Below are positions 27,722 through 41,220 of a DNA stretch of 47,578 nucleotides, piece after piece; position 1 is the first letter of the stretch, and the number at the start of each line of letters is the position of its first letter. The stretch spans positions 1 to 47,578 of the forward strand of contig JACUTU010000010.1 in NCBI GenBank assembly GCA_014859685.1. Reading direction: 5' to 3'. The notes under the pieces are model-generated. The model had not been told where the DNA came from and searched no databases. It saw only the letters and a list, made by a program, of their open reading frames with translations. This DNA comes from Sulfurospirillum sp. (lineage in GTDB: Bacteria > Campylobacterota > Campylobacteria > Campylobacterales > Sulfurospirillaceae). The translations under genes were made by a program, and so were the position numbers.

Positions 27722-27850
27722 CTTTTTAACTCAATTTTTACTCAAAACTTTTTGAATTTTAATAACTCCAATATGAAAAAAAAATGACAGCTTTATCAAA
27801 GAAATAACACAGTAAAATTCTTGCAAATTAGAACAAAGGCACTCTGTTTT

Positions 27851-29356
27851 ATGGCTACTATTAGCGTTGATGGAAAAGAGATACAGGTTCGTGAAAATGC
27901 ACTTTTGATTGAAGAACTTTTATCCAACGATATAAATATACCTCATTTTTGTTATCATCCAGCCCTTGGAAAAGATGGGAATTGTAGAATGTGTATGGTT
28001 GAAATTGAGGGTAAAAAACGCCCACAAATTGCATGTGATACACCTGTAAAAGATGGTATGATTATCCGCACCAAGGGTAAAAATATAGAAAATGTAAAAC
28101 GATCTATCTTAGAACTTGAGCTTATAAATCACCCAATTGATTGCCCTATTTGCGATCAAGCTGGCGAATGTGCTTTGCAAAACTACTACATGGATGTTGG
28201 CCTATACAGTAGCAAACTAAAAACTCCAAAAACTCGTGGCAAAAAACATGTTGATCTTGGCAGTAATGTTATGTTAGATCAAGAGCGATGCATTTTATGC
28301 ACTAGATGTATTCGTTTTACTAAAAATATTACAAAAACAGATGAATTAGGTGTTGTAAGTCGCTCAGATCACTCTGTTATCAGCACTTTTGCTGGGCATC
28401 CGCTTTCAAATCCATATGCTATGAATGTTGTGGATCTTTGTCCTGTCGGCGCACTTACGAGTAAAGATTTTCGATTTCACAAACGCGTTTGGTTTTTGAA
28501 ATCAGACAATGCTATTTGCAATCGCTGTGCCAAAGGATGTGCAATTTTTGTAGATCATCACAAGGCAAAATATGAACAAGATGATATTTTTCGTTACAGA
28601 CCTCGATTTAATGCATTAGTCAATGGCTATTTTATCTGTGATGCTGGCAGGTTGAGTTATAAGGATGAAAATGAAAACAGAAAATCACTGCCTAGTATTA
28701 GAGGCAATGATTGTGAATATGAATATGCGATGCTGAAGATTTTGCGACTTTTAAAACACAACCAAAGCAAGGCAGCTTTTATTATCAGTGCTTCATTGAG
28801 CCTTGAAGAGATTGTACTTATCAAAAAACTTGCAAACAAATATAACGCAACACTTGATGCGTATGACCACAATTATAATGAACAATTTGGAGATGATTTT
28901 TTACGAAAAAGTGACTTAGCAAGCAATAGAAACGGTCTAAAAGCCTTACATGTAAGCTGTGATGAGACTCTTATGAATGAGCATATAGCACAAGCAGATT
29001 TGCTTTTATTTGTTGGTTATAGTGATCTCTCCTCTTTTGATTGTACGCATAAAACAGTACTTGGTTTAAGCCAGAATATACCAAAGAAAAAAGATGATTT
29101 TGCTGTATTTCTCCCATTTAAAACTCATACGAGTAAAGCTGGAAGTTATATCAACGCTGATTGGTACCTACAATTTTCACAAGCAGAAATTGCGTATGCA
29201 AATGAAACAAAAAATCTTATAGAGCTTTGTTGCTTTTATAAAGAAATTGCGAGTATGGATGTAGAACAAATTTGGCAAAATGAATTACAAGCATATTTTC
29301 CACATGTAAACTTTCAGCAATTACGCAAAAATTCAATTAAAATTGAGAGTTTGTAA
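27851..29356 (+). CDS. nuoG: NADH-quinone oxidoreductase subunit G (short form)
   Basis: This 501-residue iron-sulfur subunit starts at ATG 27851 (MATISVDGKEIQV). An in-frame TTG at 27821 is less likely. Ligands for all four expected clusters are visible. The 2Fe-2S site uses Cys34, Cys45, Cys48 and Cys62. The first 4Fe-4S site uses His94, Cys98, Cys101 and Cys107; the next uses Cys147, Cys150, Cys153 and Cys197. An N7-type set is Cys223, Cys226, Cys230 and Cys263. The molybdopterin-like C-terminal part is only about 230 residues, far shorter than in E. coli or Thermus. It heads the plus-strand half of the split nuo locus, and its stop lies 2 bp before nuoH. Confidence 0.88.
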   Translation: MATISVDGKEIQVRENALLIEELLSNDINIPHFCYHPALGKDGNCRMCMVEIEGKKRPQIACDTPVKDGMIIRTKGKNIENVKRSILELELINHPIDCPICDQAGECALQNYYMDVGLYSSKLKTPKTRGKKHVDLGSNVMLDQERCILCTRCIRFTKNITKTDELGVVSRSDHSVISTFAGHPLSNPYAMNVVDLCPVGALTSKDFRFHKRVWFLKSDNAICNRCAKGCAIFVDHHKAKYEQDDIFRYRPRFNALVNGYFICDAGRLSYKDENENRKSLPSIRGNDCEYEYAMLKILRLLKHNQSKAAFIISASLSLEEIVLIKKLANKYNATLDAYDHNYNEQFGDDFLRKSDLASNRNGLKALHVSCDETLMNEHIAQADLLLFVGYSDLSSFDCTHKTVLGLSQNIPKKKDDFAVFLPFKTHTSKAGSYINADWYLQFSQAEIAYANETKNLIELCCFYKEIASMDVEQIWQNELQAYFPHVNFQQLRKNSIKIESL

Positions 29357-29358
29357 GC

Positions 29359-30636
29359 ATGCTTAGTGTGAGTGTTGTTAGCATAAATATCCTCATAGCT
29401 TTACTTTTTTCTTTAGGGGCGGCGCCAATTTTAGTTTGGATTGAAAGACGCGTAGCTGGATTTATTCAAGATAGACTCGGGCCAAATAGATGTAACATCA
29501 AGGGTATTCGTTTAGGTGGACTTATCCAATCTTTTGCAGATATGCTCAAACTTGTTTTTAAAGAAGACTATAAACCATCTTCGATCAAAGAGGGTTTTTT
29601 GTTTTCACTCTCTCCTGTTATCGTATTTGTATGCTCTTATCTTACTTTTTTAGTGATTCCATTTGCTGATGATCTGCATATTGGTTCAGAAACTTTTATG
29701 ATGCAAGCTTTGCCGTTAGAATTTGGCTTATTGTGGTTTTTAGCGTTTGCTGGTTTGAGCGTATATGGTATCATCATAGGCGGCTGGGCAAGTAATAACA
29801 AATACTCACTTCTAGGTGCAATTAGAGCAGCCGCACAGGTAATTAGTTATGAAGCTTCAATGGGTTTGTCGTTAGTTTCTGTGCTCATCATCTATGGCAC
29901 TATCAATCTTGGAAATATGGTTGATTATCAAGGACAATTACTTTTTGGATTTATACCGGCTTGGGGCATTGTGTTGCAACCTGTGGCGGCATTGCTTTTC
30001 GTTGTAACGGCATTTGCAGAAACAAATCGCACACCTTTTGATATCGCAGAGGGTGAAAGTGAAATTGTTGGCGGATTCCATACCGAATACAGTGCCATGC
30101 GTTTTGGGCTTTTCTTTGTAGGCGAATATGTTGCCATGAGTGCATCAAGTGCATTGATCGTAACGCTTTTTTTGGGCGGCTATCATATTCCTTGGCTCAA
30201 TACCGCTGCATTGCAAGCACATGTAAATGTTATATTTGTCGCAATTATGATTCTTTTACCATTTGGAAGTTACTATTTTGCTCGTTGGATCACAAAAAAC
30301 AATCGTTGGCCACAAGTTGGAGATATCCGCAACAAAGAAGCTGCGTGGCTCAAAAAAATACTGCTCATAGTTAATATTCTTGTTGTAACACTTTTAGGCT
30401 CTTTTTTACTTTTCGGACTTTCAGATGATGGCGTTAATATTTCAGTAGCAGCTTTACAGATAATCACTTTTGCGTTTAAATTACTTTTAGTGAACTTCTT
30501 TTTTGTATGGGTGCGATGGACACTTCCACGGTTTCGTTATGATCAATTACAAGATTTAGGTTGGAAAGTGCTACTACCCTTAGCACTTGCAAATATCTTC
30601 TTTACCGCATTATTTGTGGTGGGATTTGGGGTGTAA
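29359..30636 (+). CDS. nuoH: NADH-quinone oxidoreductase subunit H
   Basis: This 425-residue membrane protein forms much of the quinone chamber. Signatures are AAPILVWIERRVAGFIQDRLGP near the N-terminus and, in the quinone-site loop, AETNRTPFDIAEGESEIVGG then FHTEYSAMRF. It is longer than the roughly 330 residues of E. coli NuoH: two extra hydrophobic stretches separated by a short loop precede the C-terminus, which ends LANIFFTALFVVGFGV. Such longer NuoH forms occur in other phyla. Confidence 0.93.
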   Translation: MLSVSVVSINILIALLFSLGAAPILVWIERRVAGFIQDRLGPNRCNIKGIRLGGLIQSFADMLKLVFKEDYKPSSIKEGFLFSLSPVIVFVCSYLTFLVIPFADDLHIGSETFMMQALPLEFGLLWFLAFAGLSVYGIIIGGWASNNKYSLLGAIRAAAQVISYEASMGLSLVSVLIIYGTINLGNMVDYQGQLLFGFIPAWGIVLQPVAALLFVVTAFAETNRTPFDIAEGESEIVGGFHTEYSAMRFGLFFVGEYVAMSASSALIVTLFLGGYHIPWLNTAALQAHVNVIFVAIMILLPFGSYYFARWITKNNRWPQVGDIRNKEAAWLKKILLIVNILVVTLLGSFLLFGLSDDGVNISVAALQIITFAFKLLLVNFFFVWVRWTLPRFRYDQLQDLGWKVLLPLALANIFFTALFVVGFGV

Positions 30637-30637
30637 T

Positions 30638-31138
30638 ATGGGTGTAAAAATTGTCAAAAGAGAGGGAAAAACACTCAAAGAACGATCTTATATCTTTGCA
30701 TTATTTACGGGATTGCGGGTTACTTTGAGACATTTTTTGAAAAATCTCAAAGACACATCAAATATCAAAACCATCTCATATCCAGAAGAGCTGCCAAAAG
30801 ATATCACACCACGATATCGTGGGGTACATAGACTCACAAAGAGAGATGATGGAAGTGTGCGATGTGTTGCTTGTTTTATGTGTGCAACCGCATGTCCAGC
30901 TGATTGTATTTTTATCGTGGCACAAGAGAGAGAAGATGGAGTTGATGAGAAAATGCCAAAGAAATTTAGCATAGACTTGCTTGAGTGTATTTTTTGTGGT
31001 GCATGCGTCGAGGCATGTCCTTGCGATGCGATTAGAATGGATACGGGAATTTTTACATTTATTGCTCAAAAGAGAGAAGATTTTGTAATCCATAAAGATG
31101 CACTTTTGAAAAATAAAGCGATGAAGGGAAGCAAATGA
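30638..31138 (+). CDS. nuoI: NADH-quinone oxidoreductase subunit I
   Basis: This 166-residue ferredoxin-like subunit carries clusters N6a and N6b. Two CxxCxxCxxxCP motifs are seen: CVACFMCATACP and CIFCGACVEACP. The start is ATG 30638, one base after the nuoH stop; an in-frame ATG at 30587 lies inside nuoH and is rejected. It passes electrons from NuoG toward N2 in NuoB. Confidence 0.94.
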   Translation: MGVKIVKREGKTLKERSYIFALFTGLRVTLRHFLKNLKDTSNIKTISYPEELPKDITPRYRGVHRLTKRDDGSVRCVACFMCATACPADCIFIVAQEREDGVDEKMPKKFSIDLLECIFCGACVEACPCDAIRMDTGIFTFIAQKREDFVIHKDALLKNKAMKGSK

Positions 31139-31641
31139 TTGATATTATTTTTTTTACGCTTGCTATTTTTACGCTTGCAGGCGGCATCGGAACTATCTCT
31201 TTTTCGCAACCCATATATAGTGCTATGAGTCTTATCGTCTCAATCATTGCAATGGCAGGAATTTTTGCACTTTTAAGTGCACCTTTTTTGTTTTTGGTGC
31301 AAATCATCATCTATGCAGGTGCGATCATAACACTGTTGGTTTTTATCATTATGTTCCTGAATGTGAAAAACGAACATCTTCCAAAAGAGGAAAATAAAAA
31401 TATACACCTCACCTTGAGTGCTTTTTTGCTTATCCCGCTCGTGCTTGTAAGTTTAAAAGCTTTTAATACTTTGCCTTTAAAATCCATGGAAATCATGAGT
31501 GGCGATTTTGGGTCTATCAAGCTTTTTGGTATGACGCTTTTTCAAGGCTGGCTTGTGCCTTTTGAACTTATATCTATCTTGTTGCTTTGTGCTTTGATCG
31601 GTGCTGTTGTATATGCACGAAAGGAAGATAAAATTGGCTAA
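31135..31641 (+). CDS. nuoJ: NADH-quinone oxidoreductase subunit J
   Basis: This 168-residue membrane subunit has about five helices and the family block FLFLVQIIIYAGAIITLLVF, containing the pi-bulge helix region, then MFLNVK. It overlaps nuoI by 4 bp and nuoK by 8 bp. Membrane-arm subunit next to NuoH. Confidence 0.92.
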   Translation: MIDIIFFTLAIFTLAGGIGTISFSQPIYSAMSLIVSIIAMAGIFALLSAPFLFLVQIIIYAGAIITLLVFIIMFLNVKNEHLPKEENKNIHLTLSAFLLIPLVLVSLKAFNTLPLKSMEIMSGDFGSIKLFGMTLFQGWLVPFELISILLLCALIGAVVYARKEDKIG

Positions 31642-31951
31642 TTCAATTTTAGCGTATGTAACGCTTGCTATGATACTTTTTAGTACAGGACTTGTGGGTG
31701 TTATCGTGAGAAAAAATATATTTATAATCTACATGTCAATCGAGTTGCTACTCAATGCCATAATTCTGCTCTTTGTAGCTTTAGCAAGATATTATGAATC
31801 AATGGACGCTCAAGTTATAGCACTCTTTGTGATAGCAGTCGCAGCGGCTGAAGCGGCTGTATTTTTATCACTCATAGTTGTTCTATATAGACATAAAAAA
31901 TCACTCAATTGTGAATCTTTTACAATTCTTGCACAAAAAGATATCAAATGA
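31634..31951 (+). CDS. nuoK: NADH-quinone oxidoreductase subunit K
   Basis: This 105-residue, three-helix antiporter-like subunit carries two membrane glutamates: one in MSIELLLNA and one in AAAEAAVFLSL. The start is TTG 31634 with AAGGAAG 6-7 bp upstream. An ATG at 31601 lies far inside nuoJ without a ribosome site. With this start the length fits the family (about 100 residues). Confidence 0.9.
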   Translation: MANSILAYVTLAMILFSTGLVGVIVRKNIFIIYMSIELLLNAIILLFVALARYYESMDAQVIALFVIAVAAAEAAVFLSLIVVLYRHKKSLNCESFTILAQKDIK

Positions 31952-33834
31952 ATAGCCTCATAGTTTTTATTATACTTATTCCGCTTTTGAGTGCTTCAGT
32001 GCTGGGGCTTTCTTACATGTACTCTATAAAAATCCAAAAAGTTCCACGAGTTTTTTTTACCGCTATTGCTGTGAGTGCGCCTTTGGCTAGTTTATTGTTG
32101 GGTGTATTTTTCTTCTTCAAGATGCAAGGAGAAACAAAAGTTTTCTATTATCGAGCGTATAAATGGCTGAGTATTGATGGCCGTGATATTGATATGGCTT
32201 TTATGCTTGATGCACTTTCGCTTTTTATGGTACTTTTTATCACTTTTGTAGGCTGGCTTATCCATATATATGCAAGTGGATATATGCGAGATGATGATGG
32301 ATATGGAAAATTTTTCTTTTACTTCAACCTCTTTTTGGCTTCTATGCTCCTGCTTATACTTGCTGATGGTCCTTTGATTATGTTTATCGGTTGGGAAGGA
32401 GTTGGTTTATGCTCTTACCTGCTTATAAGTTTTTATTTTGAAGATGAGGGCAATCTCAAAGCCGGCAATAAAGCGTTTATCGCCAATAGAGTTGGGGATT
32501 TTGGTTTTATTGTTGGGATGAGTATTTTATTTTTTTATGCTGGAACTTACGGATTTGATTATGTGCATTTAGCACAAGAGATACCAAAAGTACCAACAGA
32601 TATTTTGAGTTATGCGGGTATCGCCTTGTTTGTTGGTGCAATGGGAAAATCTGCTCAAATTCCATTGTTTGTTTGGTTGCCAGATGCTATGGCTGGTCCA
32701 ACTCCCGTTTCCGCTTTGATTCATGCAGCAACCATGGTAACAGCTGGTGTGTATATGGTTGCACGATTTCATTTTCTTTATGATCTTGTGCCGCATGTTG
32801 GTTTGTATATCGCTTATGTTGGCGCAGTTTCTTCTTTGTTCGCAGCACTCATTGCTTGTTGGCAAAAAGATATCAAAAAGATACTTGCCTACTCCACAAT
32901 GTCGCAACTAGGCTATATGTTTATAGCTGTTGGACTTGGTGCATATAGTTCTGGCTTATTTCATGTATTTACACATGCTTTTTTTAAAGCACTACTTTTT
33001 ATGGGTGCTGGAGCGATTATCATCGCCTTGCATCATGAGCAAGATATTTTTAAAATGGGTGGAATGCGTCACAAAGCACCAATGCTCTTTTTTGTGATGC
33101 TCATAGCAACTTTAGCGATATGCGGAATTCCGCCATTTGCTGGATTTTTTAGCAAAGATGAGATTTTATTGCAAGCATTTGCAAAACAAGAATATCTTTT
33201 ATGGCTTTTTGGTGTACTCACCGCCGTTTTGACTGCATATTATATGTTTCGACTTTTTTTTATTGTTTTCTACGGCTCACATGTAAACACAGAGCGAGTA
33301 TTGCATCCGTTGCACAAAAGTATCACTTACCCACTTATTGTGCTTGCTGTTGGTTCGATTTTTGTAGGCTTTTTGGGATTGCCACAAGTTTTGGGCGGTG
33401 ACAATTTGATAGGGCAATGGCTGCATGATTTTGCACAGGTGAAACCTTTACATGTAGGTCATACTACAGAATTTATGTTGATGGGGCTTAATGTTTTGGC
33501 TGCATGTGTTGGTATCTTTATAGCGTATAAAAAATTCTTTACATGTGACCTAAGTATTGAGCATACAATGCGGGGTTGGGCTGCGGATAAATTTTATGTA
33601 GATGAGTTGTATGAGAAAATATTTATCCAACCTTATAAAATTTTAAGTCAATTTATCGGAAATGTTCTTGATTTGAAAATTATCGATGCTGTTGTTATGA
33701 ATTCGTCGTTGGGCTTTATCAAAGTGGGCAGATTCGTATCTCGTATGCAAAGCGCCAATACAAATTTTTATGCTTTGATGATGATTGGTGGCTTGAGTGT
33801 TTTATGCACATATTTTTTGATTGTTTTGGAGTAG
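31948..33834 (+). CDS. nuoL: NADH-quinone oxidoreductase subunit L
   Basis: This 628-residue proton-pumping subunit of the antiporter (Mrp) family has the helix V-type glutamate in MFIGWEGVGLCSYLLISFYF and the lysine region MGKSAQIPLFVWLPDAMAGP. The broken-helix segment PVSALIHAATMVTAG is also present. A C-terminal lateral helix extends over about the last 100 residues. It overlaps nuoK by 4 bp. A copy of the iterated palindrome at 33448 is read Leu-His-Val. Confidence 0.96.
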   Translation: MNSLIVFIILIPLLSASVLGLSYMYSIKIQKVPRVFFTAIAVSAPLASLLLGVFFFFKMQGETKVFYYRAYKWLSIDGRDIDMAFMLDALSLFMVLFITFVGWLIHIYASGYMRDDDGYGKFFFYFNLFLASMLLLILADGPLIMFIGWEGVGLCSYLLISFYFEDEGNLKAGNKAFIANRVGDFGFIVGMSILFFYAGTYGFDYVHLAQEIPKVPTDILSYAGIALFVGAMGKSAQIPLFVWLPDAMAGPTPVSALIHAATMVTAGVYMVARFHFLYDLVPHVGLYIAYVGAVSSLFAALIACWQKDIKKILAYSTMSQLGYMFIAVGLGAYSSGLFHVFTHAFFKALLFMGAGAIIIALHHEQDIFKMGGMRHKAPMLFFVMLIATLAICGIPPFAGFFSKDEILLQAFAKQEYLLWLFGVLTAVLTAYYMFRLFFIVFYGSHVNTERVLHPLHKSITYPLIVLAVGSIFVGFLGLPQVLGGDNLIGQWLHDFAQVKPLHVGHTTEFMLMGLNVLAACVGIFIAYKKFFTCDLSIEHTMRGWAADKFYVDELYEKIFIQPYKILSQFIGNVLDLKIIDAVVMNSSLGFIKVGRFVSRMQSANTNFYALMMIGGLSVLCTYFLIVLE

Positions 33835-33837
33835 TAG

Positions 33838-35316
33838 ATGGAATTTGGACTGTTATCGCTTATCATTTTTTTACCATTTTTTGTCGCCATGGGAGTGTTA
33901 TTTTTTCCCTTTAGTGCGCAGATGACACGAAATATTGCTTTTGCAACATCTGTTATTATCCTATTTTTAGCTTTTAAAATTTATTATGAATTTGAACTCA
34001 CAGGATATTTGCAATTGCGTGAGTACCATCTGTGGATGAAAAGTTATGGTATCAATTATAGCCTTGGCATCGATGGATTTTCGCTCATTATTATGATGCT
34101 TATAGCGACTTTAATTCCTTGTGCATATCTTATGCTTTGGGATGGTCGTACAAAAGGGTATTGGGTGAGTATGCTACTTATTCAAACAGGAATCAGTGGT
34201 ACACTTTTTTCGCAAGATCTTATCTTGTTTTACTTCTTTTGGGAAGCAATGCTTTTGCCTGTTTTTATGATCATCGGTATGTTTGGAACGGGCAATAGAG
34301 TACATTCTACGATAAAAATCACTATCTATACTATTTTGGGCTCTTTGTTTATGTTTGTCTGTATCTTATATCTTGGTGTGCAATTTTATCATGAGTATGG
34401 ATTATGGAGTTTTGAAATGAGCGACTTAATGGTCATATCTACCATTTCACGCACCGAATCTTTGTGGTTGTTTTTTGGTTTTATGTTGGCTTTTGCGATT
34501 AAGATACCGCTTTTTCCTTTTCATACATGGTTGCTTGAAACCTATTCAAACTCCCCCACTGGAGGTGTTTTTTTACTTTCATCTATCATGGCAAAACTTG
34601 GAGTGTATGCAATCGTTCGTTTTATGATGCCACTTTTTCCTAAATTATATGTAGAGTTTGCACCGTATATGATGTGGCTTGGAATTTTTGGATTGTTGTA
34701 TTTTGGCATTGCTGCGCTTATGCAAATCAATATAAAAAAAATGTTTGCCTACTCCTCTGCTTCTCACTTAGGTTTTATCGTAGCGGGGATTTTTTCACTC
34801 AATACTTACGGACTCACGGGAGCTGCATATCTCATTATTGCACATGCAATGGCAACGGGCGGGATTTTTTTGCTCATAGGTAAGATGGAATATAGTATCG
34901 GTATCAAAGCCATTCCAGCACTTGGTGGTATAGCCAAACAAGCACCTTTGTTTACAACTTTTTTTGCAATTATGTTACTGTGTATCATAGGATTGCCTGG
35001 TACAAATGGTTTTGTGAGCGAGTTTTTGATCATTTTAGGTACTTTTAAATTTCATCCAACCGCTGGCATAGTGTCTGCTTTCACGGTGCTTGTTGCGGCT
35101 ATTTTTATGTTTTGGATGTTTCAAAGAGTGATTTTGCAAAAAACAAGTAATGACATCTCTGACATGGTTGATTTAAATTTCAAAGAGGTTTTAGGAATGC
35201 TCCCGCTTGCTGTGATGATCATATCTATGGGGGTGTATCCTGATTTTTTCTTGTATAAAATTGAGCCTACTATCCAGCATTATCTCATAAATATCCTACA
35301 CATTGGAGTGAAGTAA
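33838..35316 (+). CDS. nuoM: NADH-quinone oxidoreductase subunit M
   Basis: This 492-residue antiporter-like proton pump subunit includes FFWEAMLLPVFMIIGMFGTG with the conserved membrane glutamate and FAIKIPLFPFHTWLLETYSN. SPTGGVFLLSSIMAKLGVYA is the discontinuous helix. It starts 3 bp after nuoL and shares one base with nuoN (TAATG). Confidence 0.96.
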   Translation: MEFGLLSLIIFLPFFVAMGVLFFPFSAQMTRNIAFATSVIILFLAFKIYYEFELTGYLQLREYHLWMKSYGINYSLGIDGFSLIIMMLIATLIPCAYLMLWDGRTKGYWVSMLLIQTGISGTLFSQDLILFYFFWEAMLLPVFMIIGMFGTGNRVHSTIKITIYTILGSLFMFVCILYLGVQFYHEYGLWSFEMSDLMVISTISRTESLWLFFGFMLAFAIKIPLFPFHTWLLETYSNSPTGGVFLLSSIMAKLGVYAIVRFMMPLFPKLYVEFAPYMMWLGIFGLLYFGIAALMQINIKKMFAYSSASHLGFIVAGIFSLNTYGLTGAAYLIIAHAMATGGIFLLIGKMEYSIGIKAIPALGGIAKQAPLFTTFFAIMLLCIIGLPGTNGFVSEFLIILGTFKFHPTAGIVSAFTVLVAAIFMFWMFQRVILQKTSNDISDMVDLNFKEVLGMLPLAVMIISMGVYPDFFLYKIEPTIQHYLINILHIGVK

Positions 35317-36812
35317 TGTATCCTGATTTTTTATATATAGCTCCCTTGGTTTTTGTAGGATTTGGCGGTATATTGCTTATGTTGCTTAGCCCTTTTAAGC
35401 AAATTACTATCCGTATGGCAGCCTTTATAGCACTTTTCTTTATGTTGTGTGCTACTGGTTTATATTTTTACAACATCTCCGAACTCTATTCTTACTACCC
35501 ATATGCACAAACTTTTGGCAGTATGATTGTTGCGGATAATTATTCGGCATACTTTAGTACTATTTTGCTAGCTGGTGCGATATTTACTATCTTGATAGGC
35601 GTGCATTATTTTGAAAAAAATAGAGGATTTACAACAGAATTTTTTTCCCTTTTTCTCTTTTCTCTTTTTGGTATGATGCTTTTAGTGCATGCAACCGAGC
35701 TTATCACTGTATTGATTGCGCTAGAAATTGCCTCTTTGTCGTTATATGTAATGATAGGGTTTCAAAAACATTTAGATAAACGCATGGAAGCTAGTTTTCG
35801 TTACCTCGTACTAGGTTCAATATCTGGTGCTTTTTTTCTCTTGGGTACTGCTTTTATTTATGCCAATACGCAAACTACGAAAATTTCTCAAATAGGCATT
35901 TTTATACAAAATAATCCTCAAAGCGATGTTATGCTTCTTATTATGGGCGTTTGTTTTATCTTCATTACTTTTTTGTTTAAAATCGCCGCTTTCCCTTTGC
36001 AAAATTGGGCTATTGATGTGTATGATGGTGCTCCTTATCCTGTGACTGCTTTTATGGCAGGAACTTTTAAGGCAGCAATTTTTGGATTTATCTTGCGTTT
36101 TGTTTTGGTAGATTTGGAACTTATAATTGATTTTTGGGATAATATACTCTATGTTGTAATTTTGCTAACACTCTTATACGGGAGTTTTTTGGCAATTATT
36201 CAGCAGTCACTCAAAAGAATGCTTGCCGCTTCTAGCATCGTGCATACTGGGTATTTATTGATAGCTTTCATCTCTATTGATATCACAGGTAAAAGTGCCG
36301 CATCTTCTATTATATTTTATTTGGTAGCGTATTTCCTCTCTTCTATGGGTGCTTTTGGGTTGCTCTCTTACATCTCCTCAGATGATAAAGTACGCATAAC
36401 TTACGAAGATTTTCGAGGTTTTGCACACATAAGACCTTATATGGCAGCCATGATGAGTGTTTTTATGCTCTCACTTGCTGGCATTCCTTCAACTATAGGA
36501 TTTATCGGAAAATTTTATATTTTTGTAGCAGCTATCGAATCTGGCTATACACTCTTGGCAGTTTTTGGAATTTTAGCTACTTTTGTTTCTATATATTATT
36601 ATTTTAGACTTATTGCTATTATGTATTTTTATCCAAGTGCAAAAATGCAAGATGTTCCAACGCTTCATGGAATGGCACCTTATTTTATAGGCATTATTTC
36701 GTTGATTATCATCTGGGGCGGAATAGGAAATACTCTTATAACCTATTTTCCTGGTGTAGATTTCTTGATGGATATGGCAAGACTCGCGTATGATTCTTTA
36801 CAAGTGAAGTGA
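35316..36812 (+). CDS. nuoN: NADH-quinone oxidoreductase subunit N
   Basis: This 498-residue antiporter-like subunit contains LITVLIALEIASLSLYVMIG with the membrane glutamate and FKIAAFPLQNWAIDVYDGAP. PVTAFMAGTFKAAIFGF is the broken-helix region. It is the last gene of the plus-strand nuo half-operon. Its stop lies 4 bp from the stop of the convergent nuoF, with no terminator visible between them. Confidence 0.95.
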   Translation: MYPDFLYIAPLVFVGFGGILLMLLSPFKQITIRMAAFIALFFMLCATGLYFYNISELYSYYPYAQTFGSMIVADNYSAYFSTILLAGAIFTILIGVHYFEKNRGFTTEFFSLFLFSLFGMMLLVHATELITVLIALEIASLSLYVMIGFQKHLDKRMEASFRYLVLGSISGAFFLLGTAFIYANTQTTKISQIGIFIQNNPQSDVMLLIMGVCFIFITFLFKIAAFPLQNWAIDVYDGAPYPVTAFMAGTFKAAIFGFILRFVLVDLELIIDFWDNILYVVILLTLLYGSFLAIIQQSLKRMLAASSIVHTGYLLIAFISIDITGKSAASSIIFYLVAYFLSSMGAFGLLSYISSDDKVRITYEDFRGFAHIRPYMAAMMSVFMLSLAGIPSTIGFIGKFYIFVAAIESGYTLLAVFGILATFVSIYYYFRLIAIMYFYPSAKMQDVPTLHGMAPYFIGIISLIIIWGGIGNTLITYFPGVDFLMDMARLAYDSLQVK

Positions 36813-36816
36813 GGAT

Positions 36817-38064
36817 TTACGCCTTGCAAAGTGCATCAAATTCGGCTTTAAATTTTTTGATATAACTATTTGCTATAAATGCTACTGATGGTGCAAAAAC
36901 GCAAATAGTTTTGCCATTGAGCATATCACAAGCACCAAGCATTGTTTTATAATCTTCTTGAGTTCCATCTCCTGTGAGTAATCTGCCTAGTATCTTGTCT
37001 ACCCAACCCGTTCCTTCGCGACATGGCGTGCATTGACCGCAAGACTCATGGTGGTAAAATTCAAAAAGATTTTTCATAGCAAGTGGCATAGAAACGCTTT
37101 CATCTAAGATAATCATACCACCCGTTCCTAAACTTGAACCGTGTTTTATGAGTGATTCATAATCAAGTGTAATATTTTCAATTTCATCTGCACGCAAAAT
37201 AGGACAAGACGATCCACCTGGAATAACAGCTTTGAGTTCTTTACCGCCAAGTACGCCCCCACCAATTTGCTCAATCACTGCTTTCATAGAAACCCCAAAA
37301 GGCAATTCATAAATACCAGGGTTATTGATGTGTCCACTGAGGCCAAAAAGCATTGTTCCAGGACTGTTATCAGTTCCGTAGGCGCGGTATGCTTCAAAGC
37401 CATTTTTAATGATATAAGGCACACTTGCAATTGTTTCAACATTGTTTACAACAGTTGGAGCGCCAAAAAACCATTCTGGTTCTTTGCCTTGTGGTTTTAG
37501 TCTAGGATGTCCCCTTTTGCCCTCAAGCGATTCTAAAAGTGCTGTTTTTTCACCACAAATATATGCACCAGCACCACGGTGTAAAGTGAGTTCTAACGAA
37601 AAACTACTCTTAGCGATATTTTTTCCAAGATATCCAGCCCCATACGCTTCATCGATTGCTTCTTGCATTCTTTTTGCCCAAAAAACATACTCACCACGAA
37701 TATAGATATAACTATGATTTGCCCCGATAGCATAGGCACTTGCGATGATACCTTCTATCACAAGATGGGGATCAAACTCTAAAATTTGCCTATCTTTAAA
37801 AGTTCCTGGTTCACTTTCATCGGCATTTACAACAAGATAAGTAGGCAATGGATGGTTTTTGGGAATGAGTTTCCATTTGTCTCCCGTATGTGCGCCACCA
37901 CCACCTTTTCCACGCAAGCCACTCTTGCTAACTTCTTCTACAACTTCGGCAGGTTCCATTGAAAAAAGTTTCTCCAAGCTTGTGTATCTGCCGTGTTTAA
38001 GGGCTACATGTAGCTTGTGAGAATCGGGTATATCAAAGTTTTTACTAACAATTTTTACGATCAT
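36817..38064 (-). CDS. nuoF: NADH-quinone oxidoreductase subunit F with atypical nucleotide pocket
   Basis: This 415-residue flavoprotein carries FMN and cluster N3 and should accept electrons from a reduced nucleotide. NADESEPGTFKDR (the E. coli Glu95 region) is intact, as is the N3 set CGQCTPC with a later Cys. Two pocket positions differ. The usual GRGGAGF is GKGGGGA, so the stacking Phe becomes Ala58. The usual GEETAL is GEKTAL, placing Lys173 at the E. coli Glu183 position. Start ATG 38064 is preceded by AAGGGGAT. An in-frame ATG at 38133 overlaps nuoE and would add 23 unlike residues. Last gene of the minus-strand half-operon. Confidence 0.92.
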   Translation of the reverse strand: MIVKIVSKNFDIPDSHKLHVALKHGRYTSLEKLFSMEPAEVVEEVSKSGLRGKGGGGAHTGDKWKLIPKNHPLPTYLVVNADESEPGTFKDRQILEFDPHLVIEGIIASAYAIGANHSYIYIRGEYVFWAKRMQEAIDEAYGAGYLGKNIAKSSFSLELTLHRGAGAYICGEKTALLESLEGKRGHPRLKPQGKEPEWFFGAPTVVNNVETIASVPYIIKNGFEAYRAYGTDNSPGTMLFGLSGHINNPGIYELPFGVSMKAVIEQIGGGVLGGKELKAVIPGGSSCPILRADEIENITLDYESLIKHGSSLGTGGMIILDESVSMPLAMKNLFEFYHHESCGQCTPCREGTGWVDKILGRLLTGDGTQEDYKTMLGACDMLNGKTICVFAPSVAFIANSYIKKFKAEFDALCKA

Positions 38065-38104: not shown

Positions 38105-38581
38105 TCATGCGAGACTATCCAAAATGGCATCAATTTTTTCTATGGTAAGATTTTCTTTGTAAGCTTCGTTGAGACTCATACAAGGTGCGCTCCCACATGA
38201 ACCTAAGCATTCTACCTCGGTGAGTGTAAATTTCATATCTTTGGTATTTTCTCCTGCTTTAATGCCAAGGCGATTTTCTATATGTTTTTTGATCTCTTGC
38301 GATCCTCTTAGCATACATGAGAGTGTTTTACAAATTTGAATATGGTATTTTCCAACAGGTTTGAGGTTAAACATCGTATAAAAAGATGCAACGCTGTAAA
38401 TATTCATAGGAGTTGTTTCAAGTTTTTTAGCTAGAAACACTATCGCATCTTCGCTTATAAAACCCTCTTGATACTGCACCATCCACAGTGATGGCAAGGT
38501 AAGTGAGGATTTTTGCGGATAGCGTTGTAATAACGCAGCAAATTTTTCTTCATTTTCAGGGGTAAATACAAATGCACTCAT
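38105..38581 (-). CDS. nuoE: NADH-quinone oxidoreductase subunit E
   Basis: This 158-residue thioredoxin-fold subunit carries the 2Fe-2S cluster N1a. The N-terminal helices include ISEDAIVFLAKKLETTPMNI and YSVASFYTMF. The ligand set is C-x4-C in CKTLSC and C-x3-C in CLGSC. It overlaps nuoCD by 4 bp and precedes nuoF by 40 bp. Its presence, with NuoF, separates this complex from the flavodoxin-type complex I of Helicobacter and Campylobacter, which lack both. Confidence 0.93.
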   Translation of the reverse strand: MSAFVFTPENEEKFAALLQRYPQKSSLTLPSLWMVQYQEGFISEDAIVFLAKKLETTPMNIYSVASFYTMFNLKPVGKYHIQICKTLSCMLRGSQEIKKHIENRLGIKAGENTKDMKFTLTEVECLGSCGSAPCMSLNEAYKENLTIEKIDAILDSLA

Positions 38582-40251
38582 CGATCTAATTCTCCAGCAA
38601 CTATATTGAGACTTCCAAGAGTTAAAACAGCGTCAGCAATCATACCGCCCTCAATGATATCAGCATATGCAGCCATCGCAGGAAAACAAGGCGGTCTTAC
38701 TTTGACTTTATAAGGCGTTCCACTTCCATCACTGATGATATAAAATCCAAGCTCACCATTTGCACCTTCAATGGCATTGTAGTATTCCATGGCGGGTACT
38801 TTTACGCCTTCGTAGATAAGTTTAAATTGATTCATAAGTCCCTCTATGTTTCCATATACATCTTTTTTATCCGGCAAAGATATGGCATTGTCGGCAACGA
38901 GTATAGGGCCTTGTGGAATCTGTTTCATGGCTTGATTTATGATGCGTATGCTTTGTCTAATCTCTTCAAAACGAACCATCATGCGATCATAAACATCACC
39001 AACACTGCCGATGGCAATATCAAAATCAAAACTCTCATAATTATAATATGGAGCAGTTTTTCTGATGTCATAAGCTATACCACTTGCTCGCAGATTTGGC
39101 CCACTGAGTCCAAGATTGAGGGCTTTTTCAGCTTTAATGACTCCAACATCTTGCGTGCGATCGTGAAAAATTCGATTGTGTTCTATGAGCGAGAGTGTAT
39201 CCGCAACTCCATTTTGAATCTGTTTTATGCACTCTTGTAAATCTTCGTTAAATCCATCATAAAGATCATGTGCCATGCCTCCAATTCGCATATAAGAGTT
39301 GGTGAGTCTTGCCCCTGTGAGTTTTGAGAGGAGATCATATACTGCTTCTCGAGGGTTAAAAAGATACCAATAATTTGTCAAAGCGCCCATATCCACAAGG
39401 TTAGCAGCAAGACATACAAGATGATCGATGATGCGAGAAAGTTCACCGATGAGTACTCGGATAAATTGCGCTCTTTGCGGTACGCTCACTCCAAGCATCC
39501 CCTCAACTGTATGGGCAAAAGCTATGTTGTTAAGGATAGCAGAGCAGTAATTGAGCCTATCTGTATAGGGAATAATTTGGTTGTAAGTATGATTTTCGCA
39601 CGATTTTTCAAAGCCTCTATGCAAGTAGCCTATCTCTGCTACTGCACTGATAATCGTTTCGCCCTCAAGTGCACAAAAAGTGCGAATAGTCCCGTGGCTT
39701 GCAGGGTGTGCTGGACCTAAGTTGAGAAACATCAGATCTTCATGTGAGGTAAAGCCTTTATTTTCAAGTTTTGGAATCATTTCATCCATAAGATCATCTG
39801 TTTTAGTACAAAATTGCCCTTGTGTTATGGGATAATCTTTTCTAAGCGGATGCCCGATAAATTCTTTATGGTTCAGCATTCTTTTGAGATTAGGATGGTT
39901 TGTAAAGCAGATGCCATACTGATCCCAAACCTCCCGCTCCGCCCAGTTTGCTATGGCAAAAAGTGAGCTTATACTCTGAATCTCTAGCTTTGCATCATGA
40001 AGATAAGTTTTAATCCGTACTGTTTGTAAGAAACTTGTATCTCTAAGAATATATACAAGTGCAAATCGTGAAGGACATTCGTGCTTACATGTAAGATAAT
40101 CTATGGCAGTTATATCTAAAAGAATTGAAAAATTATCCTCTATCTGTAAACATGTAATTGCCTCTATGATGTATTGTTGGGCTATGATATATTGGTTGTT
40201 TTCATCTTTACTAAAGCGGTTTGCAAAACTTGCTTCAAAATGTTTAGGCAT
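38578..40251 (-). CDS. nuoCD: NADH-quinone oxidoreductase fused subunits C and D
   Basis: This fused protein of about 557 residues starts at ATG 40251, which overlaps the nuoB stop by 8 bp and has AAAGG upstream. A longer in-frame start at 40302 would overlap nuoB by 59 bp. The NuoC part includes FAIANWAEREVWDQYGI and HPLRKDYP. The NuoD part begins near FLNLGPAHPASHGTIR, which carries a quinone-site histidine, and ends SLNIVAGELDR. A fusion of C and D is also found in E. coli but is not universal. The 5' half carries a TTACATGTAA palindrome read Thr-Cys-Lys. Confidence 0.94.
   Translation of the reverse strand: MPKHFEASFANRFSKDENNQYIIAQQYIIEAITCLQIEDNFSILLDITAIDYLTCKHECPSRFALVYILRDTSFLQTVRIKTYLHDAKLEIQSISSLFAIANWAEREVWDQYGICFTNHPNLKRMLNHKEFIGHPLRKDYPITQGQFCTKTDDLMDEMIPKLENKGFTSHEDLMFLNLGPAHPASHGTIRTFCALEGETIISAVAEIGYLHRGFEKSCENHTYNQIIPYTDRLNYCSAILNNIAFAHTVEGMLGVSVPQRAQFIRVLIGELSRIIDHLVCLAANLVDMGALTNYWYLFNPREAVYDLLSKLTGARLTNSYMRIGGMAHDLYDGFNEDLQECIKQIQNGVADTLSLIEHNRIFHDRTQDVGVIKAEKALNLGLSGPNLRASGIAYDIRKTAPYYNYESFDFDIAIGSVGDVYDRMMVRFEEIRQSIRIINQAMKQIPQGPILVADNAISLPDKKDVYGNIEGLMNQFKLIYEGVKVPAMEYYNAIEGANGELGFYIISDGSGTPYKVKVRPPCFPAMAAYADIIEGGMIADAVLTLGSLNIVAGELDR
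40085..40094. repeat. Iterated palindrome TTACATGTAA in nuoCD
   Basis: Context GCTTACATGTAAGA matches the extended consensus at 13 of 14 positions. It is read out of the Leu-His-Val frame, as Thr-Cys-Lys on the minus strand. Confidence 0.6.
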
Positions 40252-40762
40252 CGAGTCTGCCTTTGAAATTTTTTGTGGTACGATCTTTGATGATGCTTTC
40301 ATTTTTTTGGATCTCTTGAATTTTCATGAGTGCATCAAGGATTCCTTCGGGTCGCGGTGGGCAACCAGCAACATATACATCAACAGGAATAATCGCATCA
40401 ATGCCTTGCATGGTTGTATAATTGTCATAAAAACCGCCACTACATGCACAAGCACCCATACTGATCACCCATTTTGGCTCGCTCATTTGATCATATATAC
40501 GCTTAAGAATAGGCCCTTGTTTGTAGCTAATTGTGCCAGCAACAATCATAAGATCAGCCTGACGGGGAGAAAATCGGACAACTTCAGCACCAAATCGTGA
40601 GATATCATATTTGCTTGAAGCCACACTCATAAACTCTATAGCGCAACATGCTGTACCAAAGATATAAGGCCACATTGAAGATTCTCTTGCCCAAGATATG
40701 GCATTGTCAAGTTTCGTAGTTATAACACTATCGCCAAAAATCGCTTCCGCACCTACTGCCAT
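40244..40762 (-). CDS. nuoB: NADH-quinone oxidoreductase subunit B
   Basis: This 172-residue subunit holds cluster N2, the last before quinone. Ligands are the tandem Cys pair in GTACCAIEFM, Cys in GACACSGG and Cys in AGCPPRPE. It overlaps nuoA by 10 bp and nuoCD by 8 bp. Full length for the family. Confidence 0.95.
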   Translation of the reverse strand: MAVGAEAIFGDSVITTKLDNAISWARESSMWPYIFGTACCAIEFMSVASSKYDISRFGAEVVRFSPRQADLMIVAGTISYKQGPILKRIYDQMSEPKWVISMGACACSGGFYDNYTTMQGIDAIIPVDVYVAGCPPRPEGILDALMKIQEIQKNESIIKDRTTKNFKGRLDA

Positions 40763-41115
40763 TTTAAAGCCTTTATTTTATAAATATAAATAAGTCCACT
40801 TGCAAGTAAAAACATAAATGTAAACATTTCAAAAATGCCAAACCAGCCAAGTTCTCTCACATTCACAGCCCAAGGAAAAAGAAAAATAATCTCTACATCA
40901 AAGAGAACAAAAATGATAGCTACAAGATAAAATTTAACATTAAATTTACCTTGACCATCGCCAAATGATTTGCTCACACCACTTTCGTAAGCCAAATTTT
41001 TGGCACGATTTCCTTTCGTGTTTGGCCCGAGATTTTTCGTGAGTAAAAAAATAGTTGGAAGCAAGATAGCAAGTATAAAAGTGATTGATGCTGCAAGTAC
41101 AAATTCGAGTGACAC
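40753..41115 (-). CDS. nuoA: NADH-quinone oxidoreductase subunit A
   Basis: This three-helix membrane subunit of about 120 residues includes the family loop YESGVSKSFGDGQGKFNVKF, then LVAIIFVLFDVEIIFLFPWA with the conserved acidic pair. The start chosen is GTG 41115 (VSLEFVLAASITFI), with GAGAGGAT upstream. A longer in-frame ORF to 41310 would overlap the promoter and start of the divergent csd6 gene and adds 65 residues unlike NuoA. It is the first gene of the minus-strand nuo half-operon. A weak -10 candidate (TACTAT on minus, 41149-41154) precedes it. Confidence 0.88.
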   Translation of the reverse strand: MSLEFVLAASITFILAILLPTIFLLTKNLGPNTKGNRAKNLAYESGVSKSFGDGQGKFNVKFYLVAIIFVLFDVEIIFLFPWAVNVRELGWFGIFEMFTFMFLLASGLIYIYKIKALKWQ

Positions 41116-41220
41116 CCTAGGATCCTCTCTTCGTTTTAGATGTTGGATATAGTAGCGAAGATTGCTTGAAACAAAAGTAAAAAAAAACAACTTCAAATAA
41201 ACCTCTAAGAGTTTTTTAAA

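Follow-up and report, generated by a model that had tools for sequence, protein, structure and literature searches.

A rebuilt adenosine side in the nucleotide site of a Campylobacterota complex I NuoF, and the donors it may accept

What reduces the flavin of a complex I whose NuoF subunit carries a lysine where the canonical enzymes carry a glutamate? The question is raised by the nuoF gene of a Sulfurospirillum sp. genome of 2.1 Mb, found in a contiguous stretch of 47,578 nucleotides (the window) together with the genes for the other subunits. The first-pass annotation, made from the sequence of the window, had placed this lysine at the NADPH-excluding position of the site and had proposed that the complex may prefer NADPH, or a protein donor such as ferredoxin or flavodoxin.

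The nuoF gene and its complex

The genes form two convergent operons, nuoA-B-CD-E-F on the minus strand and nuoG-H-I-J-K-L-M-N on the plus strand:

27821..29356, plus strand: nuoG, short (511 aa), with N1b, N4, N5 and N7-type cysteine sets, the N7 assignment being made by eye (Pfam Fer2_4, NADH-G_4Fe-4S_3, Fer4_Nqo3)
29359..36812, plus strand: nuoH, I, J, K, L, M and N, convergent with nuoABCDEF (open reading frames; reference set matching the corresponding genes of other genomes)
36817..38064, minus strand: nuoF, 'GEK' type, the 51-kDa FMN/N3 subunit of complex I, 415 aa from ATG (TIGR01959, PRK13596)
38105..38581, minus strand: nuoE, the N1a subunit, with Cys84, 89, 125 and 129 in a Cx4C...Cx3C pattern (PF01257, E=3.2e-53; comparison with E. 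coli)
38578..40302, minus strand: nuoCD fusion (TIGR01962, TIGR01961)
40244..40762, minus strand: nuoB (NF005012)
40753..41154, minus strand: nuoA

The nuoN and nuoF ends abut in the window, unlike those of S. diekertiae, where a phosphonate-type binding protein and PAS/LapD-N and GGDEF proteins are encoded between them (L127:8015-10865(-)). A citrate synthase gene lies inside the nuo operon of G044, a genome of family f9, between nuoF and nuoG (L134:13434-14720(+)).

That the gene product is a complex I NuoF is indicated by several lines of evidence. It matches TIGR01959 over nearly the whole length (E=3.6e-161; 536 bits, under the curated cut-off of 558.65) and PRK13596 above that model's cut-off (464 bits), and its top PDB match is a complex I NuoF (E=1.6e-121). 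An AlphaFold model built from the homologue alignment (pLDDT 89, with the pocket loops less confident at ~68-74) has the NuoF fold, with a TM-score of 0.95 to the mycobacterial complex I NuoF 8e9h_F. The FMN/NADESEP residues are present, the FMN residues and N3 cysteine ligands are kept in all 84 homologues described below, and nuoF shares its locus with nuoE, nuoG and the rest of the complex I gene set. The partner subunits are likewise intact at their cofactor sites, with the N1a cysteines retained in NuoE and the Fe-S motifs in NuoG.

The adenosine half of the nucleotide site

Structures of canonical complex I show that Phe70 and Phe205/Tyr205 stack on the adenine and that Glu185 and Lys75/76 bind the adenosine ribose (PMC11677225, PMC7171172), while the nicotinamide is held by the Glu95-Ser96-Glu97 triad and FMN (PMC11677225; also PMC7171172). 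The corresponding parts of the window's nuoF, all on the minus strand and placed by alignment, are as follows:

37891..37911, minus strand: GKGGGGA (residues 52-58), replacing GRGGAGF, with Arg65 to Lys, Ala68 to Gly and Phe70 to Ala (Thermus numbering)
37789..37830, minus strand: VNADESEPGTFKDR (residues 79-92), the FMN/nicotinamide-side motif, kept (Thermus Asn92, Asp94, Glu95 and Glu97; these four residues in 84 of 84)
37546..37548, minus strand: AAA codon of Lys173, equivalent of E. coli Glu183 and Thermus Glu185
37471..37497, minus strand: loop K190-PQGKEPE-W198, with Lys202 kept, Phe205 lost (Gly193), an invariant Glu195, and an aromatic at 198 replacing Gly210
37021..37041, minus strand: CGQCTPC, the first three N3 ligands (cysteines 342, 345 and 348), in 84 of 84
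36901-36903, minus strand: Cys388, the fourth N3 ligand

The GEKTAL motif that contains Lys173 can be laid against GEETAL with no gap, and the lysine then falls opposite the second glutamate, numbered Glu183 in NuoF of E. coli K-12 and Glu185 in Nqo1 of Thermus. Ala58 aligns with Thermus Phe70, so that both the lysine and the lost stacking phenylalanine described in the first-pass annotation are borne out. A shift of the alignment that might hide another acidic residue at this spot is excluded, since the stretch from GKGGGGA to the new loop is ungapped against E. coli, Thermus, Aquifex and Paracoccus. There is also a third change, which the annotation had not described. The other adenine-stacking residue, Phe205 in Thermus and Tyr205 in Aquifex, is Gly193 here, within a loop KPQGKEPEW (190-198) that stands in place of the canonical KPPFPA.SG. 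Replacement of Phe78 by Leu was considered as a further lost contact and dropped, because E. coli also has Leu at this position. Over the 12 pocket positions inspected, the net charge rises only slightly, to 3-4 from 2-3.

These substitutions are not peculiar to one genome. NuoF homologues with 53-84% identity occur across Campylobacterales, in about 100 of 399 sampled genomes, the closest named ones being from two Sulfurospirillum metagenome assemblies (84 and 83% identity), followed by Sulfurospirillum arcachonense and others, which places the genome of the window in Sulfurospirillaceae. We read the pocket in 84 of these proteins (67 distinct), from at least nine families of Campylobacterota. 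All 84 have Lys at 173 (Thermus 185), Lys53, Gly56, Ala or Gly at 58 (Thermus 70), and Glu195 (Thermus 207). Position 193 (Thermus 205) is aromatic in none, being Gly, Gln or other residues, the position equivalent to Thermus 206 is Lys in 76, and position 198 (Thermus 210) is aromatic in every one (Trp in 78, Phe in four, Tyr in two). In contrast, Glu185, Phe70 and Phe/Tyr205 are kept in 10 of the 10 canonical NuoF sequences compared. Thus neither the Glu at the adenosine-ribose position nor the two stacking aromatics expected of an NADH-specific complex I are found in any member of the clade, and the acidic, NADPH-excluding residue, whose removal is expected of an NADPH:quinone complex I, is gone.

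The other half of the site presents a different picture. Asn80, Asp82 and Glu83 (Thermus Asn92, Asp94 and Glu95) are invariant in the 84 sequences, as are Lys63 (Thermus Lys75), Glu85 (Glu97), Tyr168 (Tyr180), Lys190 (Lys202), Asn207-Asn208 and the four N3 cysteines, in agreement with the earlier statement that the FMN-site residues and N3 cysteines remain. The pocket loops contain no indels, except for one inserted residue in three sequences. Judged by these residues, the rebuilding is confined to the adenosine half of the nucleotide site, the nicotinamide/flavin half being as in the canonical enzyme.

In the tree the GEK sequences group together on a long stem, monophyletic with respect to canonical NuoF (support 0.82). 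Comparison of the window's NuoF with four close relatives gives dN/dS values of 0.058-0.082, a fifth pair being saturated. Sequencing error and gene decay are ruled out by the 67 distinct relatives and by a dN/dS of ~0.06. Since the ligands of FMN, N3 and N1a are kept as well, together with the residues on the nicotinamide side, the conservation pattern identifies the pocket change as a maintained, specific functional remodelling across a Campylobacterota clade and not as decay. Outside Campylobacterota the sample consisted of plasmid-borne proteins and PDB entries; Lys occupies the Glu site in none of those read, and every plasmid-borne match stays below 60% identity. We found no report of an altered pocket in the open-licence literature, which is no proof of novelty. 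Two genomes of the Sulfurospirillum family (G010 and G035, genus g2) are without the GEK complex and have only an epsilon-type complex, and G015 (g5) has a complex of a GltD-fusion type in its place.

Two complexes I and the candidate donors

The genome of the window encodes a second complex I in a single operon (G000:C20, L125), comprising nuoA, B, C and D, genes for a 75-aa PF16514 protein and a 259-aa orphan, and nuoG to nuoN, with a long NuoG of 827 aa. By its gene content this second complex is of the Campylobacter/Helicobacter type. In C. jejuni, nuoE and nuoF are absent and replaced, and flavodoxin is the donor (PMC4178425). The window complex does not share this arrangement, as it has NuoE and NuoF where that type has genes of the Cj1575c/Cj1574c kind. 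The first-pass annotation had linked the altered pocket with the donor change known in Helicobacter and Campylobacter; that link points to the wrong complex, the one without nuoE and nuoF, which is present separately. Nor is there support for the window complex as an intermediate on the way to the Campylobacter one, because the two are distinct and coexist. S. diekertiae has the same pair of operons, at ~0.15 and 0.44 Mb, and the same pocket.

The window NuoF belongs to what has been called the 'standard' complex I of Sulfurospirillum. For S. multivorans, Goris et al. (2015) describe this complex as interacting with NAD+ and assign ferredoxin/flavodoxin to the epsilon-type complex SMUL_0195-0208 (PMC4585668). 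A later account gives the ferredoxin/flavodoxin donor to the nuoABCDEF/nuoGHIJKLMN complex (PMC11238625), but appears to mix up the two, since the source that it cites, PMC4585668, assigns NAD to the standard one. As far as its residues allow a judgement, the pocket lends no support to the published NAD assignment.

The NuoF slot of the second, epsilon-type complex is itself variable. The 259-aa orphan found there (L125:6692-7471(+)) matches no Pfam family and has a weak match to the C-terminal region (504-564) of PRK08493, a model for epsilon NuoG, so that it may derive from NuoG and not from NuoF. Many Campylobacterota carry in this slot a ~670-aa fusion in which the C-terminal N3 domain of NuoF (PF10589) is joined to an oxidoreductase of the GltD-like 4Fe-4S/FAD/NAD(P)H kind (PF14691 + PF07992), present in 189 of 399 Campylobacterales genomes (for example L154:1442-3448(-), L155:3578-5563(+), L152:519-2588(-), L153:854-2860(-) and L157:2896-4617(-)). 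From its domains it looks as if a GltD-type module for NAD(P)H had been exchanged wholesale for the NADH module. The N-terminal domain of the fusion in L152-L155 has CGRC(T/A)PG...KCEIG as its N3 motif, with Gly for the last cysteine of CxxCxxC, implying that N3 would need another ligand or differ.

The GEK complex is the sole complex I in several complete genomes, four of family f9 (G044, G062, G090, G179) and four of f11 (G079, G092, G128, G360). With E. coli Ndh as query, no convincing NDH-2 was found in G000, G006, G019, G026, G044, G359, G079, G128 or G360, and NqrF of Na+-Nqr was found in none of the 23 genomes tested. In G044, G079, G128 and G360 the GEK complex is therefore the only known candidate found for respiratory oxidation of a nicotinamide nucleotide; some such oxidation is expected there, which argues for a nucleotide donor. 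POR-type 2-oxoacid oxidoreductases are encoded in 23 of 23 genomes, so that reduced ferredoxin or flavodoxin should be available as well.

What, then, is the donor? FMN converts two-electron to one-electron transfer and is needed for hydride donors. As FMN and all its ligands are kept, and the complex with a one-electron donor has discarded NuoE and NuoF, we infer that a two-electron donor still reaches the flavin. We envisage a working complex I of ordinary fold whose nucleotide site has been rebuilt on the adenosine side only; hydride from a nicotinamide nucleotide would still pass to FMN, with the adenosine end recognised differently. The most likely substrate would be NADPH, its 2'-phosphate bound by Lys173 and the basic residues 192 and 194, and stacking on the adenine might be taken over by the conserved aromatic at 198. 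Variants of E. coli at Glu183, described in 2011 by Morina and colleagues, reportedly use NADPH with up to 200-fold better efficiency, and we know of an NADPH specificity switch of complex I only from such engineered E. coli variants. NADPH is the best-fitting nucleotide because the residue whose removal reportedly opens the E. coli enzyme to it is Lys here, with 192 and 194 basic as well; the universal exchanges at 185 and 70, the loss of any aromatic at 205 and the unchanged fold are all consistent with it. We tentatively prefer a hydride donor whose adenosine is recognised in an altered way, with NADPH as the first candidate, at somewhat below an even chance. The fuller proposal is that in Sulfurospirillum and many related Campylobacterota the 'standard' complex is misannotated as NADH-specific and by nature oxidises NADPH with menaquinone while pumping protons, or, run in reverse, reduces NADP+ at the expense of the pmf; it is possible at a slightly lower level of confidence.

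Several features sit uneasily with NADPH. Both adenine-stacking aromatics are lost, though NADPH would be expected to use them too, the invariant Glu195 and an acidic residue at 197 are unfavourable to a phosphate, and the gain in pocket charge is small. Moreover, a member of the family solved with NADH, the bifurcating aldehyde oxidoreductase 9mqx, has Ser at 185 and His at 205, so that loss of Glu185 alone is no proof of NADPH use and the sequence does not settle the donor. We considered whether 9mqx might be an NADP enzyme, and so supply an NADP-type signature, but the entry title reads 'with NADH'. The same structure, lacking both Glu185 and an aromatic at 205, speaks for an ordinary NADH:quinone oxidoreductase with a lineage-specific, equivalent pocket, in which Trp198 would lie on the adenine and Lys173 on the ribose or pyrophosphate and specificity would be for NADH or broad. 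Such an enzyme would agree with the invariant nicotinamide-side and FMN residues, with the NAD-linked annotation of the standard complex (PMC4585668) and with the absence of any other candidate respiratory NADH dehydrogenase found in the four genomes named above. It accords less well with the loss of the aromatic at 70, which 9mqx keeps, with the turning of Glu to Lys in every sequence and not its mere neutralisation, and with the retention of all three residues by canonical NuoF; we regard it as rather unlikely. Against any nucleotide donor, C. jejuni does without a respiratory NADH dehydrogenase, which is hence dispensable in the phylum.

An unlikely solution is that reduced ferredoxin or flavodoxin docks at a widened, basic mouth of the old NADH channel and feeds FMN or N3, the nucleotide site being closed. 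The loss of both stacking aromatics, the basic residues 173, 190, 192 and 194 at former pocket positions and the universal POR-type enzymes would suit such a donor, as would the flavodoxin-fed complex I of the phylum (PMC4178425) and the assignment in PMC11238625, were it not that the latter appears to merge the two complexes of its source. However, the pocket loops have kept their lengths, there is no variation at Glu97, Lys202, Tyr180 or Lys75, FMN is not required by a one-electron donor, and this genome already has a separate protein-donor complex. Finally, the rebuilt adenosine site might mean that the input site is unused for nucleotide oxidation and that NuoF is a structural and FMN/N3 scaffold, with electrons entering elsewhere, for example at NuoG or NuoE. 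Drift around FMN would be expected of a merely structural subunit, whereas the FMN ligands, the nicotinamide-side residues and the N1a/N3 ligands are invariant, and we consider this very improbable.

Our order of preference is thus an NADPH-first hydride donor, then NADH held through new contacts, then a protein donor, then a non-catalytic input site. The donor change foreseen in the first-pass annotation survives in part. The site is indeed altered at the NADPH-excluding and stacking positions, and fixed so across a deep clade, which makes a change of donor a possibility to be taken seriously; its protein-donor limb is weakened by the retention of FMN, N3, N1a and pocket loop lengths, and its NADPH limb is plausible from the residues, tempered by 9mqx and by the loss of both stacking aromatics. 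The phenomenon is also broader than that annotation proposed, being a variant found throughout a clade, and one that concerns the complex I regarded in the literature as the usual NADH-linked enzyme. Across much of Campylobacterota, a complex I assumed to run on NADH may thus use NADPH or another donor. Energy balances for Sulfurospirillum follow from the NAD and ferredoxin/flavodoxin assignments of proteomic and physiological work (PMC4585668), and electron-flow maps of these bacteria would change with NADPH, or any donor other than NADH. Were it NADPH, the complex would be a natural case of the specificity switch.

Comparison with known systems

The HydB/NfnB-like proteins of Campylobacterales (L087, L089-L094; ~40% identical to the query) mostly have GEATAL, with one GETTA, together with His at 205 and Tyr at 70. 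With Ala or Thr for Glu185, they are a second candidate for altered nucleotide specificity on the strength of these motifs.

How does the GEK complex compare with systems already characterised? With the canonical NuoF/Nqo1 of E. coli, Thermus, Aquifex and Paracoccus it shares the fold (TM-scores of 0.92-0.95), the FMN and nicotinamide-side residues, the N3 cysteines, the NuoE (N1a) and NuoG partners and a full nuo complement that includes the nuoCD fusion known from E. coli. It differs in Glu185 to Lys, Phe70 to Ala/Gly, Phe205 to Gly, Gln or another residue, Arg65 to Lys, Ala68 to Gly, Gly210 to Trp and Ala207 to Glu. The flavodoxin-fed complex I of Campylobacter and Helicobacter belongs to the same phylum, and occurs in this genome as a separate operon, but has the PF16514 protein and the 259-aa orphan instead of NuoE and NuoF, separate nuoC and nuoD, and the long NuoG. 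The engineered E. coli NuoF variants are said to be substituted at the same residue, Glu183; here, in contrast, the change is natural and is accompanied by the loss of the stacking residues and by a new loop with basic residues, Glu and Trp.

The bifurcating subunits of HydB/NfnB/StnB type, including that of the aldehyde oxidoreductase 9mqx, have the same 51-kDa fold, and some of them lose both Glu185 and Phe205. They differ in having extra Fe-S domains, Asp for Glu97 and Gly at 210, and the 415-aa NuoF has neither the N-terminal thioredoxin-like nor the C-terminal ferredoxin extension of the HydB-like group (~540 aa). The aromatic at 70 is kept in all the sequences of this type that were compared, as Phe70 in 9mqx, whereas in the GEK clade it has given way to Ala or Gly throughout.
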